From Nitrospira japonica (GTDB lineage Bacteria > Nitrospirota > Nitrospiria > Nitrospirales > Nitrospiraceae), in the NCBI RefSeq assembly GCF_900169565.1, contig NZ_LT828648.1:2764501-2828500 (forward strand): a stretch of DNA of 64,000 nucleotides, in the 5' to 3' direction. The stretch's first letter is position 1, and each line of letters opens with the position of its first letter. Positions 11,319-61,050 of the stretch are shown here, in pieces. The notes under the pieces were generated by a model that was not told the DNA's origin, did no database searches, and saw nothing but the letters and a program-made list of their open reading frames with translations. The translations under genes were made by a program, and so were the position numbers.

Positions 11319-13868
11319 ATGAGCAAGCCGTTCACCATGGCATCGCGCGCGGATTCTCAGGTGAACGGGGAAGACGCGGTCGCGGTTCGACGGTCTGCTC
11401 AGCACGCCATACCGATGACGGCGCTGTTGCTTGCGGCATCGGGAGCCGCCGCGCTTGTCTATCAGGTGCTCTGGATCAAGCAACTCTCCCTGATCGTCGG
11501 GGTGGACGTCTACGCCGTTGCCGCGGGCATCAGCGCATTCTTCGGCGGCATGGCCTTGGGAAGCCTGTTGTTGGGCCGGGTGGTCGATCGCGTCCGCCGG
11601 CCGCTGTTGTTTTACGGGGGCATCGAAGCGGGCATCGCGGCGCTGAGCGTATCGGTGACCGTTGCGCTTCCCCATACGGCGGAACTCTTCGCCACGGCCG
11701 AAGCGGCGGTCGGACCGGCGGCATGGACGATTCCGCTCGCGCTGGTGGCGGTCCCGGCCGTTCTCATGGGCGGAACGCTGTCTGCGCTGCTCCGCTCGCT
11801 TCAGCCGTTACAGGAAGCGATCAGTTTCGTCGCGGCCGGCCTATATGCGAGCAATACGCTGGGGGCGGTGGCCGGCGCCCTCCTCTGTTCGTTTCTCTTG
11901 ATTCCCTTTCTTGGCATTCGCGGCGCGGCTCTCGCGGCCGCGGCGGCCAATCTGGCCGTGGTGGCTGGTGCCATCGCTCTCGACCGGATGTCAAGGCCTT
12001 TCGACGTGGACGATCGGTTTCCGCCCGCAGCCGTCGTGCCGGGGAACATTCCGCTCGCGCTCGTGCTCTATTCCATCGCCGGAGGAATCGCGTTGGGGTA
12101 TGAAGTGGTCTGGTCCCAGGCCATCGTACCGTTCATGAGTACCAGGAGTTTCGCTTTCTCCATCGTGCTGGCGACCTATCTTGCAGGGCTCGTGATCGGC
12201 TCCGCACTCTGTGCGCGACATGCGGATCGTCTTCGCCATCCATGGGCAGCCTTCGGGTTCTTGCTGGCCGCGGCCGGCGCAGTCGCATTGCTGGAGATCG
12301 CGTTACTCGGCCGATGGCTCGTCATCGTGCAAACCCAGGCGGAGGCGGCCGTTCTGGCATTGACGAGCAGTCCTCTGTTCGGAATGTGCACGCGGTTTGC
12401 CGTCGCGGCGGTGTCCATCGTGTTTGTGCCGACGCTGCTTCTGGGCGCGGCCTTTCCAGTGGTGATTCGACTGACGGTTGACGCCCGGCATGTCGGACGT
12501 CAGACCGGGGCCGTGGTGGCGCTCAACACCGCGGGTGGTATTGCGGGAACCCTGGTCACCGGGTTCGTGCTCGTTCCCATGCTCGGACTCGTCCATGCGC
12601 TTGCGGCCTTGGCCATCGCCGCATCGGTCGTGGGTGGTATCGCGGCCATGCGGGAAGCCGAAAGCGGCTCGATGCTGCGATGGGCGACGCTCGGTACCGG
12701 CGTCCTGACGGTCCTGGTCGCGGTCGTCACGCCGGCTGACCGTCTGGCCTCGTTACTTCCGGGGGCGCGAGCCGGAACGCTCCTCTTTTATGACGAATCC
12801 CCGGGCGGGACAGTGGCGGTGGTGGAGAATCGGGCCGGTCACAACCGGTTCAGGCGGCTGTATATCGAGGGTGTGTCCAATTCCGGAGACGCGATGCCGT
12901 CGATGCGCTACATGCGGCTGCAGGCGTTGTTGCCGCTGGTCATTCATAACGGCGAGCCGCGATCGGCACTGGTCATCGGATTCGGGACCGGCATTACGGC
13001 CGGCGCGCTGTTGGCCTATGAAGACTTGGAACGCCGCGTCGTAGCCGAACTTCTGCCGGCCGTCGTACGGACCGCGCCGCTCTTTCCGGCCAATCTTGGC
13101 GCGGGAGACAATCCGAAAATCGACGTCCGCCTGCGCGACGGCCGCCGAGAACTGTTGCGCAGCCAAGACGAATACGACGTGATCACGCTCGAACCTCCGC
13201 CGCCCTCGGCCGCAGGGGTCGTGAACCTCTATTCGACCGAGTTTTATGCGCTCGTCGGCAAGCGTTTGAAACCATCAGGACTCCTCGCGCAATGGCTGCC
13301 TCTGTCGACCCAGAACGACGAGGACACGCGTTCCCTGGTTCGAAGCGTTCTCGATAGCTTCCCGCACGTCTCGCTTTGGACGACGGAATTCAACGAGATG
13401 TTGCTGGTCGGTTCCTTCGAGCCGCTGCAGCTCGACGTGCCGAGGATCACGGAACGACTGAGTCAACCTGGCGTGGCGACGGCGTTACGCCAAGTCGGAA
13501 TTGCATCTCCCGCGGCCCTACTGGCCCTCTGGGTTACGGATCGAGCCGGGCTCGAGCGGTATGCCGCCGGCGCTCCTGCCGTCACGGACGATCGTCCCCG
13601 CATCGAATATGCGTCCTGGGTCAGGCCGAAGGAAGTGGCGCAGACCTTACCCGGCTTGCTTGCCCTGTATGAGGTTCCACCCCTGCGCGGAGACGACGAG
13701 ATGTTGCGGTCACGGATGACGGCGGACCGTGAGCGGTTGATGACGTTTTATCGGGCCGGACTCCACGCGTACGACGGTGATCGCCCCTCGTGGAGGGAAG
13801 AGATGCGACGCGTCATGAACGGAGATCCGGACCCCTATTATGGTTGGTTCATCCATGAGGAAAGCTGA
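11319..13868 (+). CDS. Fused multi-TM / spermidine-synthase-like protein
   Basis: A protein of 849 aa. Residues about 30-480 form a dozen or more hydrophobic helices of the MFS-like type found in 'fused MFS/spermidine synthase' proteins ('LVYQVLWIKQLSLIVGVDVY', 'MGGTLSALLRSL'). Residues about 490-740 form a Rossmann methyltransferase-like domain with motif I 'VIGFGTGITAG'. The catalytic Asp-rich motif of true spermidine synthases is replaced by 'TLEPPPPSAAGVVNLYSTEF', a change usual in this membrane family, so polyamine synthesis is doubtful. The cellular role of the family is not established. The stop overlaps the start of the DUF58 gene, placing it in the moxR operon. Confidence 0.88.
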   Translation: MSKPFTMASRADSQVNGEDAVAVRRSAQHAIPMTALLLAASGAAALVYQVLWIKQLSLIVGVDVYAVAAGISAFFGGMALGSLLLGRVVDRVRRPLLFYGGIEAGIAALSVSVTVALPHTAELFATAEAAVGPAAWTIPLALVAVPAVLMGGTLSALLRSLQPLQEAISFVAAGLYASNTLGAVAGALLCSFLLIPFLGIRGAALAAAAANLAVVAGAIALDRMSRPFDVDDRFPPAAVVPGNIPLALVLYSIAGGIALGYEVVWSQAIVPFMSTRSFAFSIVLATYLAGLVIGSALCARHADRLRHPWAAFGFLLAAAGAVALLEIALLGRWLVIVQTQAEAAVLALTSSPLFGMCTRFAVAAVSIVFVPTLLLGAAFPVVIRLTVDARHVGRQTGAVVALNTAGGIAGTLVTGFVLVPMLGLVHALAALAIAASVVGGIAAMREAESGSMLRWATLGTGVLTVLVAVVTPADRLASLLPGARAGTLLFYDESPGGTVAVVENRAGHNRFRRLYIEGVSNSGDAMPSMRYMRLQALLPLVIHNGEPRSALVIGFGTGITAGALLAYEDLERRVVAELLPAVVRTAPLFPANLGAGDNPKIDVRLRDGRRELLRSQDEYDVITLEPPPPSAAGVVNLYSTEFYALVGKRLKPSGLLAQWLPLSTQNDEDTRSLVRSVLDSFPHVSLWTTEFNEMLLVGSFEPLQLDVPRITERLSQPGVATALRQVGIASPAALLALWVTDRAGLERYAAGAPAVTDDRPRIEYASWVRPKEVAQTLPGLLALYEVPPLRGDDEMLRSRMTADRERLMTFYRAGLHAYDGDRPSWREEMRRVMNGDPDPYYGWFIHEES

Positions 13869-14820: not shown

Positions 14821-15324
14821 ATGGACCAGGGCGCTCATAGTCTCGAAGCTCTCAAGGAAATTCCCCTTCCCGATCCTGTCCCTTATATCCCGCAGACCGT
14901 CGGTTGGCTCCTGATCGGGGCGCTCGCGTTGGGGGCAATCGGCTATGGTCTTTGGCGAGTGGTTCGGTACCGCGCCGCCAATCGATATCGGCTGGCGGCC
15001 CTGAAAGAGTTGGCGGAGATCGAGTCACGGATCGACAATGCCGATGAGCGACATCGGGCCTTGACTGCAATCCCGGCCTTGCTCAAGCGAACGGCCATGG
15101 CTGCCGCCGGACGACAGACCGCGGCGGCCCTCTCTGATCGAGCCTGGTGGGAATTTCTGGATCGGACTTATGCTTCGGGAGGATTCTCCAACGGACCGGG
15201 CCGCCTCCTGACTCTGTTCTCGTATGCCGAACCATCGAAACTTGCCGTAGTTCCCGAATCCGAGATCAGAGACGTCATCGTATTGGTGCGCCGCTGGATC
15301 AAAGAACATCATGCTCATCTTTGA
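14821..15324 (+). CDS. DUF4381 membrane protein of the MoxR/Bat operon
   Basis: A protein of 167 aa with a short proline-rich start ('LKEIPLPDPVPYIPQTVGW'), one transmembrane helix (about residues 27-47) and a helical cytoplasmic domain with 'LLKRTAMAAAGRQTAAAL' and 'WWEFLDRTY'. These match DUF4381, the usual gene between DUF58 and batA. Its end overlaps the start of batA by 14 bp, which suggests translational coupling. Confidence 0.9.
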   Translation: MDQGAHSLEALKEIPLPDPVPYIPQTVGWLLIGALALGAIGYGLWRVVRYRAANRYRLAALKELAEIESRIDNADERHRALTAIPALLKRTAMAAAGRQTAAALSDRAWWEFLDRTYASGGFSNGPGRLLTLFSYAEPSKLAVVPESEIRDVIVLVRRWIKEHHAHL

Positions 15325-16351
15325 TGTTCCGTGGGTCTTTGCCCTGTTGCCCATCCCGCTGCTCGTATGGTGGCTGCTCCCTCCGTACCGGGAAGCGAGC
15401 CGGGCCGTTCGGGTTCCATTCTTTGAGGAAGCCGCGCATGCTGCCGGCCTCACGCCGGCGCGAGGCGCGGTCGTGCTCAGGACGAACTGGGCGCAAAAAC
15501 TCATCGCGCCGGTTTCGTGGGGACTGCTCCTCCTGGCGGCCGCCGGTCCGCAATGGGTCGAGCCGCCCATCGAACGGGTGGAAGCCGCCCGCGATCTCAT
15601 GCTGGCGATCGATCTGTCCCAGTCCATGGAGGCCAAGGACTTCACCGACCGGGAGGGGCGGCGCGTCGATCGGTTGACCGCGGTCAAGACAGTGGTGGAC
15701 GATTTTATCGACCGGCGGAAGGGCGACCGAATCGGGTTGATCGTGTTCGGCTCCGCCGCCTTTCCGCAGGCGCCGCTGACCCTGGATCATGCCACCGTAC
15801 GGCTGCTGCTCGACGAGCTTCGGATCGGCATGGCCGGGCCTCAGACCAGCATCGGCGATGCGATCGGCGTCGCCATCAAGATGACCGAACGGTCCAAGAT
15901 GAAAGAACGGGTTCTCATCTTGTTGACCGACGGGAACGACACCGCCAGCAAGCTTCCGCCGGAGCAGGCGGCCAAGATCGCCAAACAGCAGGGAGTCACG
16001 ATCCATACGATCGGGATCGGCAATCCAAAGGCGGAAGGGGAGCAGCGGGTCGATCTGCACGCGCTCGAACAGCTTGCCCAGACCACGGGTGGCCGATCCT
16101 TTCGAGGAGAACAACGGCAAGGACTCGAAGGTATCTACAAAACGCTCGACGAGATCACGCCTGAGAAAGTGAAGCGATCGCTCTATCGTCCGAAGCGGGC
16201 GCTCTATTTCTACCCGCTTTGCGTCGCGGCATTGCTGCTGGTCGCCTATCATCTCGCGATGCTCGCTTGGACAGCTATTGGCGAGAAGTCTCAAATCCGA
16301 AGCACGAATATCGAAATTCGAAACAAGGGGAATATGGAGACCGGAGCTTGA
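15311..16351 (+). CDS. batA: BatA-like VWA-domain membrane protein
   Basis: A protein of 346 aa with TM segments at about residues 6-24, 65-80 and 303-325. A von Willebrand factor A domain lies between the last two, with an intact MIDAS motif D-L-S-Q-S ('LAIDLSQSM') and 'LLTDGNDTASKLPPEQA'. Bat proteins form a membrane complex with MoxR linked to aerotolerance and envelope stress. The last 20 or so residues ('SQIRSTNIEIRNKGNMETGA') are encoded by the CGAAATTCGAA-type repeat that begins at 16293. The natural C-terminus therefore appears to have been replaced by read-through into the element. Confidence 0.9.
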   Translation: MLIFDVPWVFALLPIPLLVWWLLPPYREASRAVRVPFFEEAAHAAGLTPARGAVVLRTNWAQKLIAPVSWGLLLLAAAGPQWVEPPIERVEAARDLMLAIDLSQSMEAKDFTDREGRRVDRLTAVKTVVDDFIDRRKGDRIGLIVFGSAAFPQAPLTLDHATVRLLLDELRIGMAGPQTSIGDAIGVAIKMTERSKMKERVLILLTDGNDTASKLPPEQAAKIAKQQGVTIHTIGIGNPKAEGEQRVDLHALEQLAQTTGGRSFRGEQRQGLEGIYKTLDEITPEKVKRSLYRPKRALYFYPLCVAALLLVAYHLAMLAWTAIGEKSQIRSTNIEIRNKGNMETGA

Positions 16352-16579
16352 AATGCGATGCTGCAACTCTTGAATCTGAGCGGATTCTGTTGATTCAAGA
16401 GTGTCATGAACTGATGAATATATTCGGCGCAATTCTCCGGAAAAGCGAGTCGAATGTGAAGCAGGATCCCTGAGTTTCGAATTTCAAGTTACATGGTCCC
16501 TGTTCGATTTGCGACATTCGTATTTGTAGGCAGTATTCATAGCATTTCGAATTTCGATATTCGAATTTCGAGTTTGTAT
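16293..16579. repeat. CGAAATTCGAA-type interspersed repeat, copy 2
   Basis: The left arm (16293-16333, with CGAAGCACGAATATCGAAAT) and the inverted right arm (16472-16577, with TTTCGAATTTCGATATTCGA) bracket the whole spacer between batA and batB. The element supplies the end of batA and reaches to within about 5 bp of the batB start, which has no visible Shine-Dalgarno site. Confidence 0.8.
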
Positions 16580-16583
16580 TCCC

Positions 16584-18434
16584 ATGCTTGAGCTCTTTCA
16601 CTTCTTGCGTCCTTGGTTCCTACTCCTGGCTCCTGCCGGTCTCGCCATCGCCTGGCTCTGGGGCAAGCAGGCCGATCCGAAGGCACGGTGGCGCGGTATC
16701 ATCCAACCGGCCTTGCTCGACCACCTTCTCGTCGGTGAACCGTCCGGTGTCCGATTCACGCCCATTCATTGGGTGGCCGTCTCGTTGGTGCTGGCCGGCG
16801 TTGCGGCAGCCGGGCCGACCTGGGAGAAGGAACCGCCGCCGTTTCTGGAAGACCGCGCGCCGATGGTCGTGGCGCTCGATCTGTCGCCTAGTATGGACGC
16901 AATCGATCTCCCGCCGACCAGACTCGAGCGTGCGAAACAGAAGATCCATGACGTGGCGGCCCTTCGCTCCGGATCGCGAACCGGTTTGGTCGTGTACTCC
17001 GGCACGGCTCATCTGGTGTTGCCACCCAGTGAAGACCCGGCGCTGCTCGCTCTGTTCCTGGAGGCACTGGACACGAAGCTCATGCCGGTCGCCGGCCGAC
17101 ATGCCGCCGACGCTCTCGCTGTGGCGGACCGGATCCTGGCCGTGGAATCCGTGCCAGGCACCGTCCTGTTCATGACGGACGGATTCAATCCATCCGAGAT
17201 CGGAACATTTGCAGAGCATGGACAAACGTCGCCGCATCAGGTGATCGTGCTGGCTGCCGGGACGGCCGAGGGAGGGCCGATCAGGGGCGACAAAGGACGA
17301 ATGGCCGTGGATCGGCAGGGAAAACCGATTCAGGCCCGGCTGGATCGTGAGGTCTTCTCGCGATTGAGTTCGGAAGCGGGAGTTCCCGTCGCAAGCGTCA
17401 CGCTGGATGAAAGCGACGTCGAATGGGTCCAGCGGCGGGCCATGCACCACATGCAGGTCATGCAGGAGAAGACGGCCGAAGTCCATTGGAAGGAATTCGG
17501 CTACTACGGCACGTTCCCGATTCTATTGCTCGCTGCCTTCTGGTTCCGTAAAGGATGGACGGTCAGTTGGCTCATGGTATTGCTATTGATGGTAATCACG
17601 GGGATAGTCTGGCCATTCGAGTTGCGAGCTGAGCCGCACAGTGAAAATTCGAAATTCGAATATCGAAATTCGAAACAGCTTGCTAGCTCTGAGAAAACAA
17701 CACAGGGAGAATTGGCACAATCGAAATCCGAAGCACGAAATGCGAAACAAATTCGAAATCAGAATCTCGAAATGCGAAACATTGAAAAAGGCACGAGTCT
17801 ACATTCAGATGAGCCATACGCAACAGTGTCTTCTGATCAATCTTCCAGTTTCGGGTTTCGTGCTTCAATATTCGAGATTATGGCGAGTTGGTTCATGACG
17901 CCAGACCAGCAGGGTCGGTGGTATTTCGAGCATGGCGACTATGTCACCGCTGCCGGACGGTATCGCGATCCGATGTGGAAGGGACTGTCCTACTATCGAG
18001 CCGGCGACTATGCCGCGGCGCTCGCGCAGTTTGCCAGGTTGGACAGCGCGGAGGCGATGTTTCTCATGGGGAACTGTTATGCGCGCATGAAGGACTATCC
18101 CGCGGCAGTCGGCGCCTATGACAATGCCCTGAAGGGGCGCCAGGTGTTTTCCGAGGCAACGGAGAATCAAAAGCTCGTGGCGGGGCTCATTCCGAAGAAG
18201 CCCAAGGATCCCGAAGAAGGCGAAGCAGACCCGAATCTGGATCCCGACGATATCAAGTTCGACGAGAAAGGCAAGAAAGGCAAGGCTGGAAAGGTTCCGC
18301 AGTTCAAGGTCAAACCGGAGCAGATGGCCGAGATGTGGATGCGCAATCTCACCATTTCGCCGGCCGACTTTCTGAGGGAGAAATTCCGCATCGAAGCGGA
18401 AGGCAAGACGAAAGCCACACGAGGTTCGTCATGA
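16584..18434 (+). CDS. batB: BatB-like VWA protein fused to a TPR (BatC-like) domain, with a repeat-encoded linker
   Basis: A protein of 616 aa. TM segments lie at about residues 10-26 and 60-76, then a VWA domain with MIDAS 'VALDLSPSMDAIDL' (D98-L-S-P-S), two TM helices at about 310-345, and a C-terminal TPR region (about 433-530) with 'GDYVTAAGRYRDPMWKGLSY' and 'NCYARMKDYPAAVGAYDNAL'. VWA-TPR fusions of this type are common in Bat operons. Between the last TM helix and the TPR region, residues about 354-431 are encoded by a CGAAATTCGAA-type element (17643-17878), giving 'SKFEYRNSK' and 'SEARNAKQIRNQNLEMRN' peptides. The frame stays open. The last codons overlap batD by 4 bp. Confidence 0.9.
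   Translation: MLELFHFLRPWFLLLAPAGLAIAWLWGKQADPKARWRGIIQPALLDHLLVGEPSGVRFTPIHWVAVSLVLAGVAAAGPTWEKEPPPFLEDRAPMVVALDLSPSMDAIDLPPTRLERAKQKIHDVAALRSGSRTGLVVYSGTAHLVLPPSEDPALLALFLEALDTKLMPVAGRHAADALAVADRILAVESVPGTVLFMTDGFNPSEIGTFAEHGQTSPHQVIVLAAGTAEGGPIRGDKGRMAVDRQGKPIQARLDREVFSRLSSEAGVPVASVTLDESDVEWVQRRAMHHMQVMQEKTAEVHWKEFGYYGTFPILLLAAFWFRKGWTVSWLMVLLLMVITGIVWPFELRAEPHSENSKFEYRNSKQLASSEKTTQGELAQSKSEARNAKQIRNQNLEMRNIEKGTSLHSDEPYATVSSDQSSSFGFRASIFEIMASWFMTPDQQGRWYFEHGDYVTAAGRYRDPMWKGLSYYRAGDYAAALAQFARLDSAEAMFLMGNCYARMKDYPAAVGAYDNALKGRQVFSEATENQKLVAGLIPKKPKDPEEGEADPNLDPDDIKFDEKGKKGKAGKVPQFKVKPEQMAEMWMRNLTISPADFLREKFRIEAEGKTKATRGSS
17643..17878. repeat. CGAAATTCGAA-type repeat, copy 3, inside the batB reading frame
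   Basis: The left arm repeats AAATTCGAAATTCGAATATC; internal units read CGAAATCCGAAGCACGAAAT; the right end is inverted (TTTCGGGTTTCGTGCTTCAA). It lies wholly inside batB and is translated without a stop or frame change. It falls exactly at the junction between the membrane anchor and the TPR domain. Confidence 0.85.
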
Positions 18435-60964: not shown

Positions 60965-61050
60965 AAATACGAAATTCGAATGTCGAAATTCGAAATGGGA
61001 AAGTCAAAATACGAAACGCGAATCACAAAGCTCGAAACGTGAAACGAGGA
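60965..61050. repeat. CGAAATTCGAA-type interspersed repeat, copy 4
   Basis: Direct units in one orientation (ATACGAAATTCGAATGTCG and AAATACGAAACGCGAATC) fill the spacer between the convergent SDR and OB-fold genes. Unlike copies 1-3 it has no evident inverted right arm. Confidence 0.78.

Follow-up and report, generated by a model that had tools for sequence, protein, structure and literature searches.

The long linker of BatB is very probably a derived in-frame insertion of a small palindromic element built from NNCGAAA units. The gene lies in the window, that is, the whole stretch of 64,000 nucleotides of Nitrospira japonica DNA that was analysed.

The batB insert and its neighbourhood

The batB gene (16584-18434, + strand) is an open reading frame of 616 amino acids comprising a VWA domain (Pfam VWA_2, residues 94-200), transmembrane segments, the insert and a TPR region (TPR_2, residues 489-517). 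The insert corresponds to codons 354 to 433 (17643-17882, + strand): 240 nt, or 80 codons, of CGAAA-type sequence with zero stops, located after the last hydrophobic segment and before the TPR region. Its GC content is 0.40 and its GC3 is 0.33, as compared to 0.72 both before and after it. The codon score per codon changes from 0.18 before the insert to -0.09 inside and 0.29 after, the atypical GC3 and codon score being confined to the insert. The original prediction had described a CGAAATTCGAA-type element in this frame, at the boundary between the last transmembrane helix and the TPR domain, adding about 78 residues without a stop. The element is indeed present at this position, with limits at most 4 bp from those predicted and a measured length of 80 codons. 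The predicted inverted ends were found as two arms of 28 nt (17721-17748 and 17848-17875) that are 79% complementary.

The insert is composite, as three matches to the element model R1 overlap in it. A complete element was matched on the minus strand (17747-17873, 51.1 bits, E 1.5e-7), with its left end near 17873 and its right end near 17747. A second match lies on the plus strand (17723-17881, 50.9 bits) and a third, weak one on the minus strand (17643-17743). An arm of the left-end type containing CGAAGCACGAAA was located at 17717-17750 (+ strand), and one of the right-end type at 17645-17677 (- strand); the latter reads TTTCGAATTTCGATATTCGAATTTCGAATTT on the minus strand, in agreement with right ends from other phyla. 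Thus, the insert probably consists of two overlapping element copies.

A BatB search in 61 genomes gave 9 matches, including that of the own genome. The 8 homologues compared, from three families, were those of the nearest relative (G003, same genus) and of seven members of the same order. The linker measures 92 residues in this BatB and 11 to 12 residues in all 8 homologues. Therefore, as far as these alignments can tell, the approximately 80 extra residues are a derived insertion and not an ancestral feature. This alignment had been proposed together with the prediction, and it does not support the reading that would have refuted it, in which other lineages have lost an ancestral long linker. 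Such an ancestral linker is hardly tenable and was rejected: no support for it was found, it is contradicted by the eight short linkers, and the insert corresponds to a repeat interspersed in its own genome. At the DNA level the empty site could only be placed inexactly, given an identity of only about 70% to the nearest relative.

A second element, absent from G003, was detected between batA and batB (16293-16577, + strand). Its match to R1 is weak and partial (16440-16577, 23.1 bits, E 0.07). The batA stop (gene at 15311-16351, + strand) lies within the left arm of this element, and 6 bp separate its right arm from the batB start. The C-terminal tail of BatA, KSQIRSTNIEIRNKGN, is the conceptual translation of the left arm; homology to G003 BatA stops at residue 328 of 346, so that about 18 residues were added. 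In G003 the stop of batA overlaps the start of batB (GTGA), and in the window 232 bp separate the two. By this comparison, the second element breaks an overlap that the nearest relative keeps. Two insertions of the same family, this one being upstream of the batB insert, are thus found at most 1.3 kb apart in one operon.

Loss of the overlap, and the lack of an evident Shine-Dalgarno sequence for batB after the second insertion, could be signs of a decaying gene whose open frame is accidental. However, the 183 codons following the insert keep the usual GC3 (0.72) and codon score and encode a protein part about 79% identical to that of G003, and batA and batD next to batB also have open frames. 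Decay is thus very unlikely. That BatB is made and functional with its linker is inferred only from this intact downstream frame, in the absence of transcript or protein data.

Architecture, distribution and diversity of the element

The window contains 33 matches to TTCGAAATTCGAA (at most 2 mismatches) against 1.9 expected, a number reached by none of 100 shuffles. Among the other copies, a compact intergenic element (1417-1504, + strand) matches R1 with 72 bits (E 9.1e-12), and a further intergenic NNCGAAA array is located at 60970-61023 (+ strand). In the own genome (4.08 Mb), CGAAANNCGAAA has 60 exact matches versus 7 for the reversed pattern. This enrichment bears out the predicted insertion of an interspersed repeat. 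Of 19 element clusters, 17 lie in the last 32% of the chromosome (G000 C1:2765000-4084817; binomial p ~4e-7); this count excludes matches with chance-typical spacer bases, a filter of our own choice. Clusters are concentrated near 3.095-3.139 Mb, a region of scattered synteny with G003. A three-unit pattern was counted 14 times in the own genome, 0 times in G003 and 3 times in G006, all of the same genus; the corresponding R1 matches were 9, 2 and 0. In a sample of the phylum, 28 of 148 genomes match R1, the own genome being the only member of its family among them. Unrelated interspersed repeats, 84-100% identical to many places in G006, were also seen at L092:8926-8967 and 12184-12408.

The element is a palindrome of degenerate 7-bp units (NNCGAAA) with two distinguishable ends. 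Its layout is the same throughout: the left end, around AAATYCGAAGCACGAAATCCGAAACAA, is followed by an A-rich inner arm, a variable central part and a T-rich inner arm, after which comes the right end, around TTTGTTTCGRATTTCGATATTCGRATTTC. The two ends can be told apart at one place (GCA versus ATA), which gives the element a direction. Lengths of 124 distinct elements range from 60 to 297 nt, with a median of 148 nt. Terminal inverted repeats are present: over 28 designated pairs, 87.4% of the cells are paired.

Scanning 84,980 species genomes for CGAAGCACGAAAYNCGAAA returned at least 119 stretches. Hosts among those listed, judging by the titles of the records, are Planctomycetota, Aminicenantes, Desulfobacterota-type bacteria, Omnitrophota, Chloroflexi, Ignavibacteriae, Lentisphaerae/Verrucomicrobia, Nitrospinota and several Patescibacteria-type groups; one listed stretch comes from an isolate named Lysobacter. 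By pattern matching, the consensus thus recurs in at least eight phylum-level groups, and its two different ends (CGAAGCACGAAA and TTTCGATATTCG) are found again across phyla. In the first 80 of these stretches, on which the paired-end set, the training set and the first open-frame scan were built, 59 of 84 left ends have a right end within 400 bp and 25 are unpaired; among the 119 stretches listed, 80 of 123 left ends are paired. Eight IMG/VR contigs (L285-L292) match the strict left-end pattern; in L286 it occurs on both strands, at a distance of about 110 bp.

R1 matches in five genomes reached via the scan numbered at least 150, 147, 128, 60 and 24, with at most 150 scored candidates considered per genome. 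These are not copy numbers, because palindromes match on both strands. After removal of overlapping and identical rows, 69 of 150 remained for the analysis of diversity. Mean identity between genomes was 0.68, and within genomes it was 0.69 (G330), 0.73 (G328), 0.76 (G327) and 0.83 (G329). Judged from this set, diversity among the copies of a single genome can be about as high as between phyla. It should be kept in mind that all 69 were recruited via one model, which narrows differences within and between genomes.

The genomic context of 115 unique elements was also assigned: 61 lie in co-directional, 13 in convergent and 11 in divergent gaps; of the remainder, 9 fall within an open frame, 17 at edges and 4 in stretches with few genes. 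The open-frame scan behind this count missed a TsaD case that the first scan had found. A rival explanation is that selection maintains the elements as binding sites or RNA hairpins, acting in regulation, at mRNA ends or in chromosome structure, and that the batB copy is a stray product. The near-invariant CGAAA cores with freely varying bases between them would fit this explanation, as would the orientation of elements in co-directional gaps, 42 of 61 of which point with the genes (p 0.004), and a predicted RNA folding stronger than that of Markov-resampled sequence (mean z -3.2, 30 elements). On the other hand, variable paired positions show no covariation above shuffles, convergent and divergent gaps are equally used, Rfam gives no match, and related elements are abundant within the coding regions of one clade. 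We therefore regard selected sites as unlikely, though not negligible. Invariant cores without covariation speak for conserved inverted DNA motifs rather than a conserved RNA structure; a structure maintained by compensatory change is not supported. The equal use of convergent and divergent gaps (13 versus 11) also led us to reject a terminator role. Membership of an Rfam RNA family was rejected as no curated covariance model matched: there was only a sub-threshold chance match in batA-batB and none on elements of 7 other loci.

In-frame copies in other proteins and the 7-bp rhythm

Arrays of NNCGAAA units are free of stops in all six frames (0 of 4096 arrays with a stop in any frame), so that translation can continue through a copy with a length divisible by three. 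This property is shared by 88 of the 1024 five-base cores. Whole elements have 1.6 open frames of 6, versus 0.96 in shuffled sequence.

Independent in-frame copies were observed in several conserved proteins, each insert in TsaD, LepA and IscS being aligned to solved structures or to relatives lacking it. In TsaD of G325 (contig L177), residues 127-156 are extra, where solved TsaD has 2 residues; TsaD of G346 carries another in-frame copy of the CGAAA family. LepA of a Levyibacteriota record (L187) has about 30 extra residues after the GTPase domain. In the same record, the start of the LepA frame is apparently replaced by a further left-end array immediately before NLIDTPGHVDF (L187:3308-3480), and the P-loop part was not seen in frame. 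The cysteine desulfurase IscS of G331 (L306:9350-10768) has three in-frame palindromic inserts of two families: two are of the CGAAA type, with about 37 and 29 extra residues, and the third is of another family. In all cases written out (BatB, TsaD of G325, IscS twice and LepA), the left-type arm is read in the same phase, R-N/S-x-K, giving translations such as ARNSKQ, YRNSKQ, ARSTKQ and IRNPKG.

The relatives of G325 form a clade with genomes of 0.5-1.2 Mb, which we infer to be a Patescibacteria-like group. Their TsaD loop, between HxEGH and SGGHT, contains inserts that differ in sequence among species (L305-L320), with repeats of CGAAA, AATTCAA, ATTTCTA, ACCCTAA, GTTGAAA and others; in other relatives the alignment breaks at this loop with little or no extra sequence. 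From these comparisons, the loop is a recurrent insertion site in an essential gene. Over 686 kb of this clade, 54 windows have a 7-bp period versus 0-19 for other lags. When merged slightly differently, 46 of 55 seven-base-periodic stretches, many with other cores, fall within open frames of 150 codons or more. As the stretches were picked around TsaD and along a few contigs, these numbers do not amount to a census. All ten frames tested match conserved Pfam domains and are conserved enzymes, including a class I tRNA synthetase, GlmS-like, FolD-like, TatD, RNase HII and KsgA-type proteins. One 779-codon open frame with two glycosyltransferase domains (L321:6706-9042) contains four 7-bp-periodic inserts.

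Among lags of 3 to 12, 7 nt was the best repeat lag in all 18 inserts examined, BatB included, with insert boundaries set by eye. As 7 is not a multiple of 3, this rhythm originates in the DNA rather than in repeats of the protein. The same periodicity could result if a short heptamer had been multiplied on the spot through replication slippage, without insertion of a mobile element, and near-perfect tandem heptamers do exist in other genomes, e.g. in the TsaD loop of G348. But slippage makes neither a second inverted arm nor two different ends recurring across phyla, and the homologous BatB linkers are too short to hold such an array. Growth in place is thus distinctly unlikely.

Tentatively, we consider it a real possibility, though not one we would yet favour, that the batB insert belongs to a wider class of mobile or self-spreading palindromes, for which the 7-bp rhythm is the defining feature rather than any single sequence. 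Several families, each with its own core (CGAAA, GTTTAGGG-like, TTAAGAA-like, GTTGAAA-like and others), would share this rhythm, spread between phyla and insert repeatedly in frame into loops of essential proteins in some small-genome bacteria, BatB being one event outside that clade. If this is true, coding regions are apparently not avoided in some small-genome bacteria.

Mobility and comparison with known systems

The resemblance to a miniature mobile element noted in the original prediction holds for the inverted ends and the interspersed family; mobility itself was not demonstrated. The search for a target-site duplication at 17640 and 17880 gave nothing convincing, as the flanks share 6 bp, a length reached by 13-14% of random pairs. 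No fixed-length direct repeat was found in 126 elements either. Longest common substrings at 25 nt slightly exceed permutation, for direct and inverted comparisons alike, and this excess was put down to shared local base composition. No autonomous copy was identified among 43 left ends that lack a right end nearby; only one of these (L156) has a right-end pattern farther downstream, which was not examined. Y1_Tnp genes are present in the own genome and in 7 of 8 further genomes; G325 yielded none, although it carries the element. The own genome has a single such gene, of the REP-transposase type (L280, G000 C1:3487678-3488013), about 13 kb from the nearest array. As neither a target-site duplication nor an autonomous copy or a mobiliser was found, mobility is only inferred.

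The following sequence of events may be proposed. A recombination or transposition activity of unknown nature would have copied the element into batB. With a length that is a multiple of three and no stops, the frame would stay open through the element, and read-through would yield a hydrophilic linker with many S, E, N, K and Q residues. This linker would be tolerated at a domain boundary of BatB, as is the case with Rickettsia palindromic elements, so that the element could persist.

In-frame palindromic insertions in conserved proteins are described for Rickettsia and apparently also for Wolbachia and a handful of enteric MITEs. The present analysis found a single element family, common to many phyla, in BatB, TsaD, LepA and IscS. 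If translated, such elements would be a route for bacterial proteins to gain linkers and loops, and uncultured small-genome bacteria would have enzymes with unusual loops. The fixed 7-bp rhythm, the free spacers and the similar diversity within and between phyla point to an unidentified but searchable process at the DNA level. No description of this element was found in the literature searched, which left out most subscription journals, and the motif strings gave no match on bacterial repeats, judging by titles.

REP sequences associated with TnpA-REP (PMC3733652, PMC8266576) are also palindromic, intergenic and present in many copies, but they measure 20-40 bp and have GTAG or CGTC tags; our elements have a median of 148 bp and no such tags. 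The TAACTGA heptamer repeats of Beggiatoaceae (PMC4679880) share the 7-bp unit and the sporadic occurrence in distant lineages. Unlike the present element, however, they have a fixed sequence, are nearly all direct and mostly lie just before start codons in one species. PARCELs (palindromic amphipathic repeat coding elements; PMC2996958) are likewise coding palindromic DNA found sporadically across distant clades. They consist of a tandem 25-residue motif with a period of 75 nt, whereas the period here is 7 nt, not a multiple of three. MITEs such as ERIC, YPAL and Correia (PMC2229807) are small, with inverted ends, scattered copies and occasional open frames, and all these features apply to the present element, terminal inverted repeats included. 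However, neither a target-site duplication nor a source transposon was found, and it was not classed as a MITE because the target-site-duplication test failed.

The closest parallel is provided by the Rickettsia palindromic elements (RPE; Ogata et al. 2000), which are about 100-150 bp long, with inverted ends, and either intergenic or in frame in conserved genes (PMC10969869, PMC2229807); their target-site duplication is uncertain. The present element is likewise a palindrome of roughly 100-150 bp (median 148 nt) with paired arms, and its family is in frame in the conserved proteins BatB, TsaD, LepA and IscS. In contrast to RPE, it is composed of degenerate 7-bp units, and the diversity of its copies within one genome can equal that between phyla. 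No RPE sequences were compared; the element was not classed as an RPE because its host range differs, RPE being confined to one genus, Rickettsia, and the present consensus spanning many phyla. By analogy, it would work like an RPE, with a different anatomy and a far wider host range.
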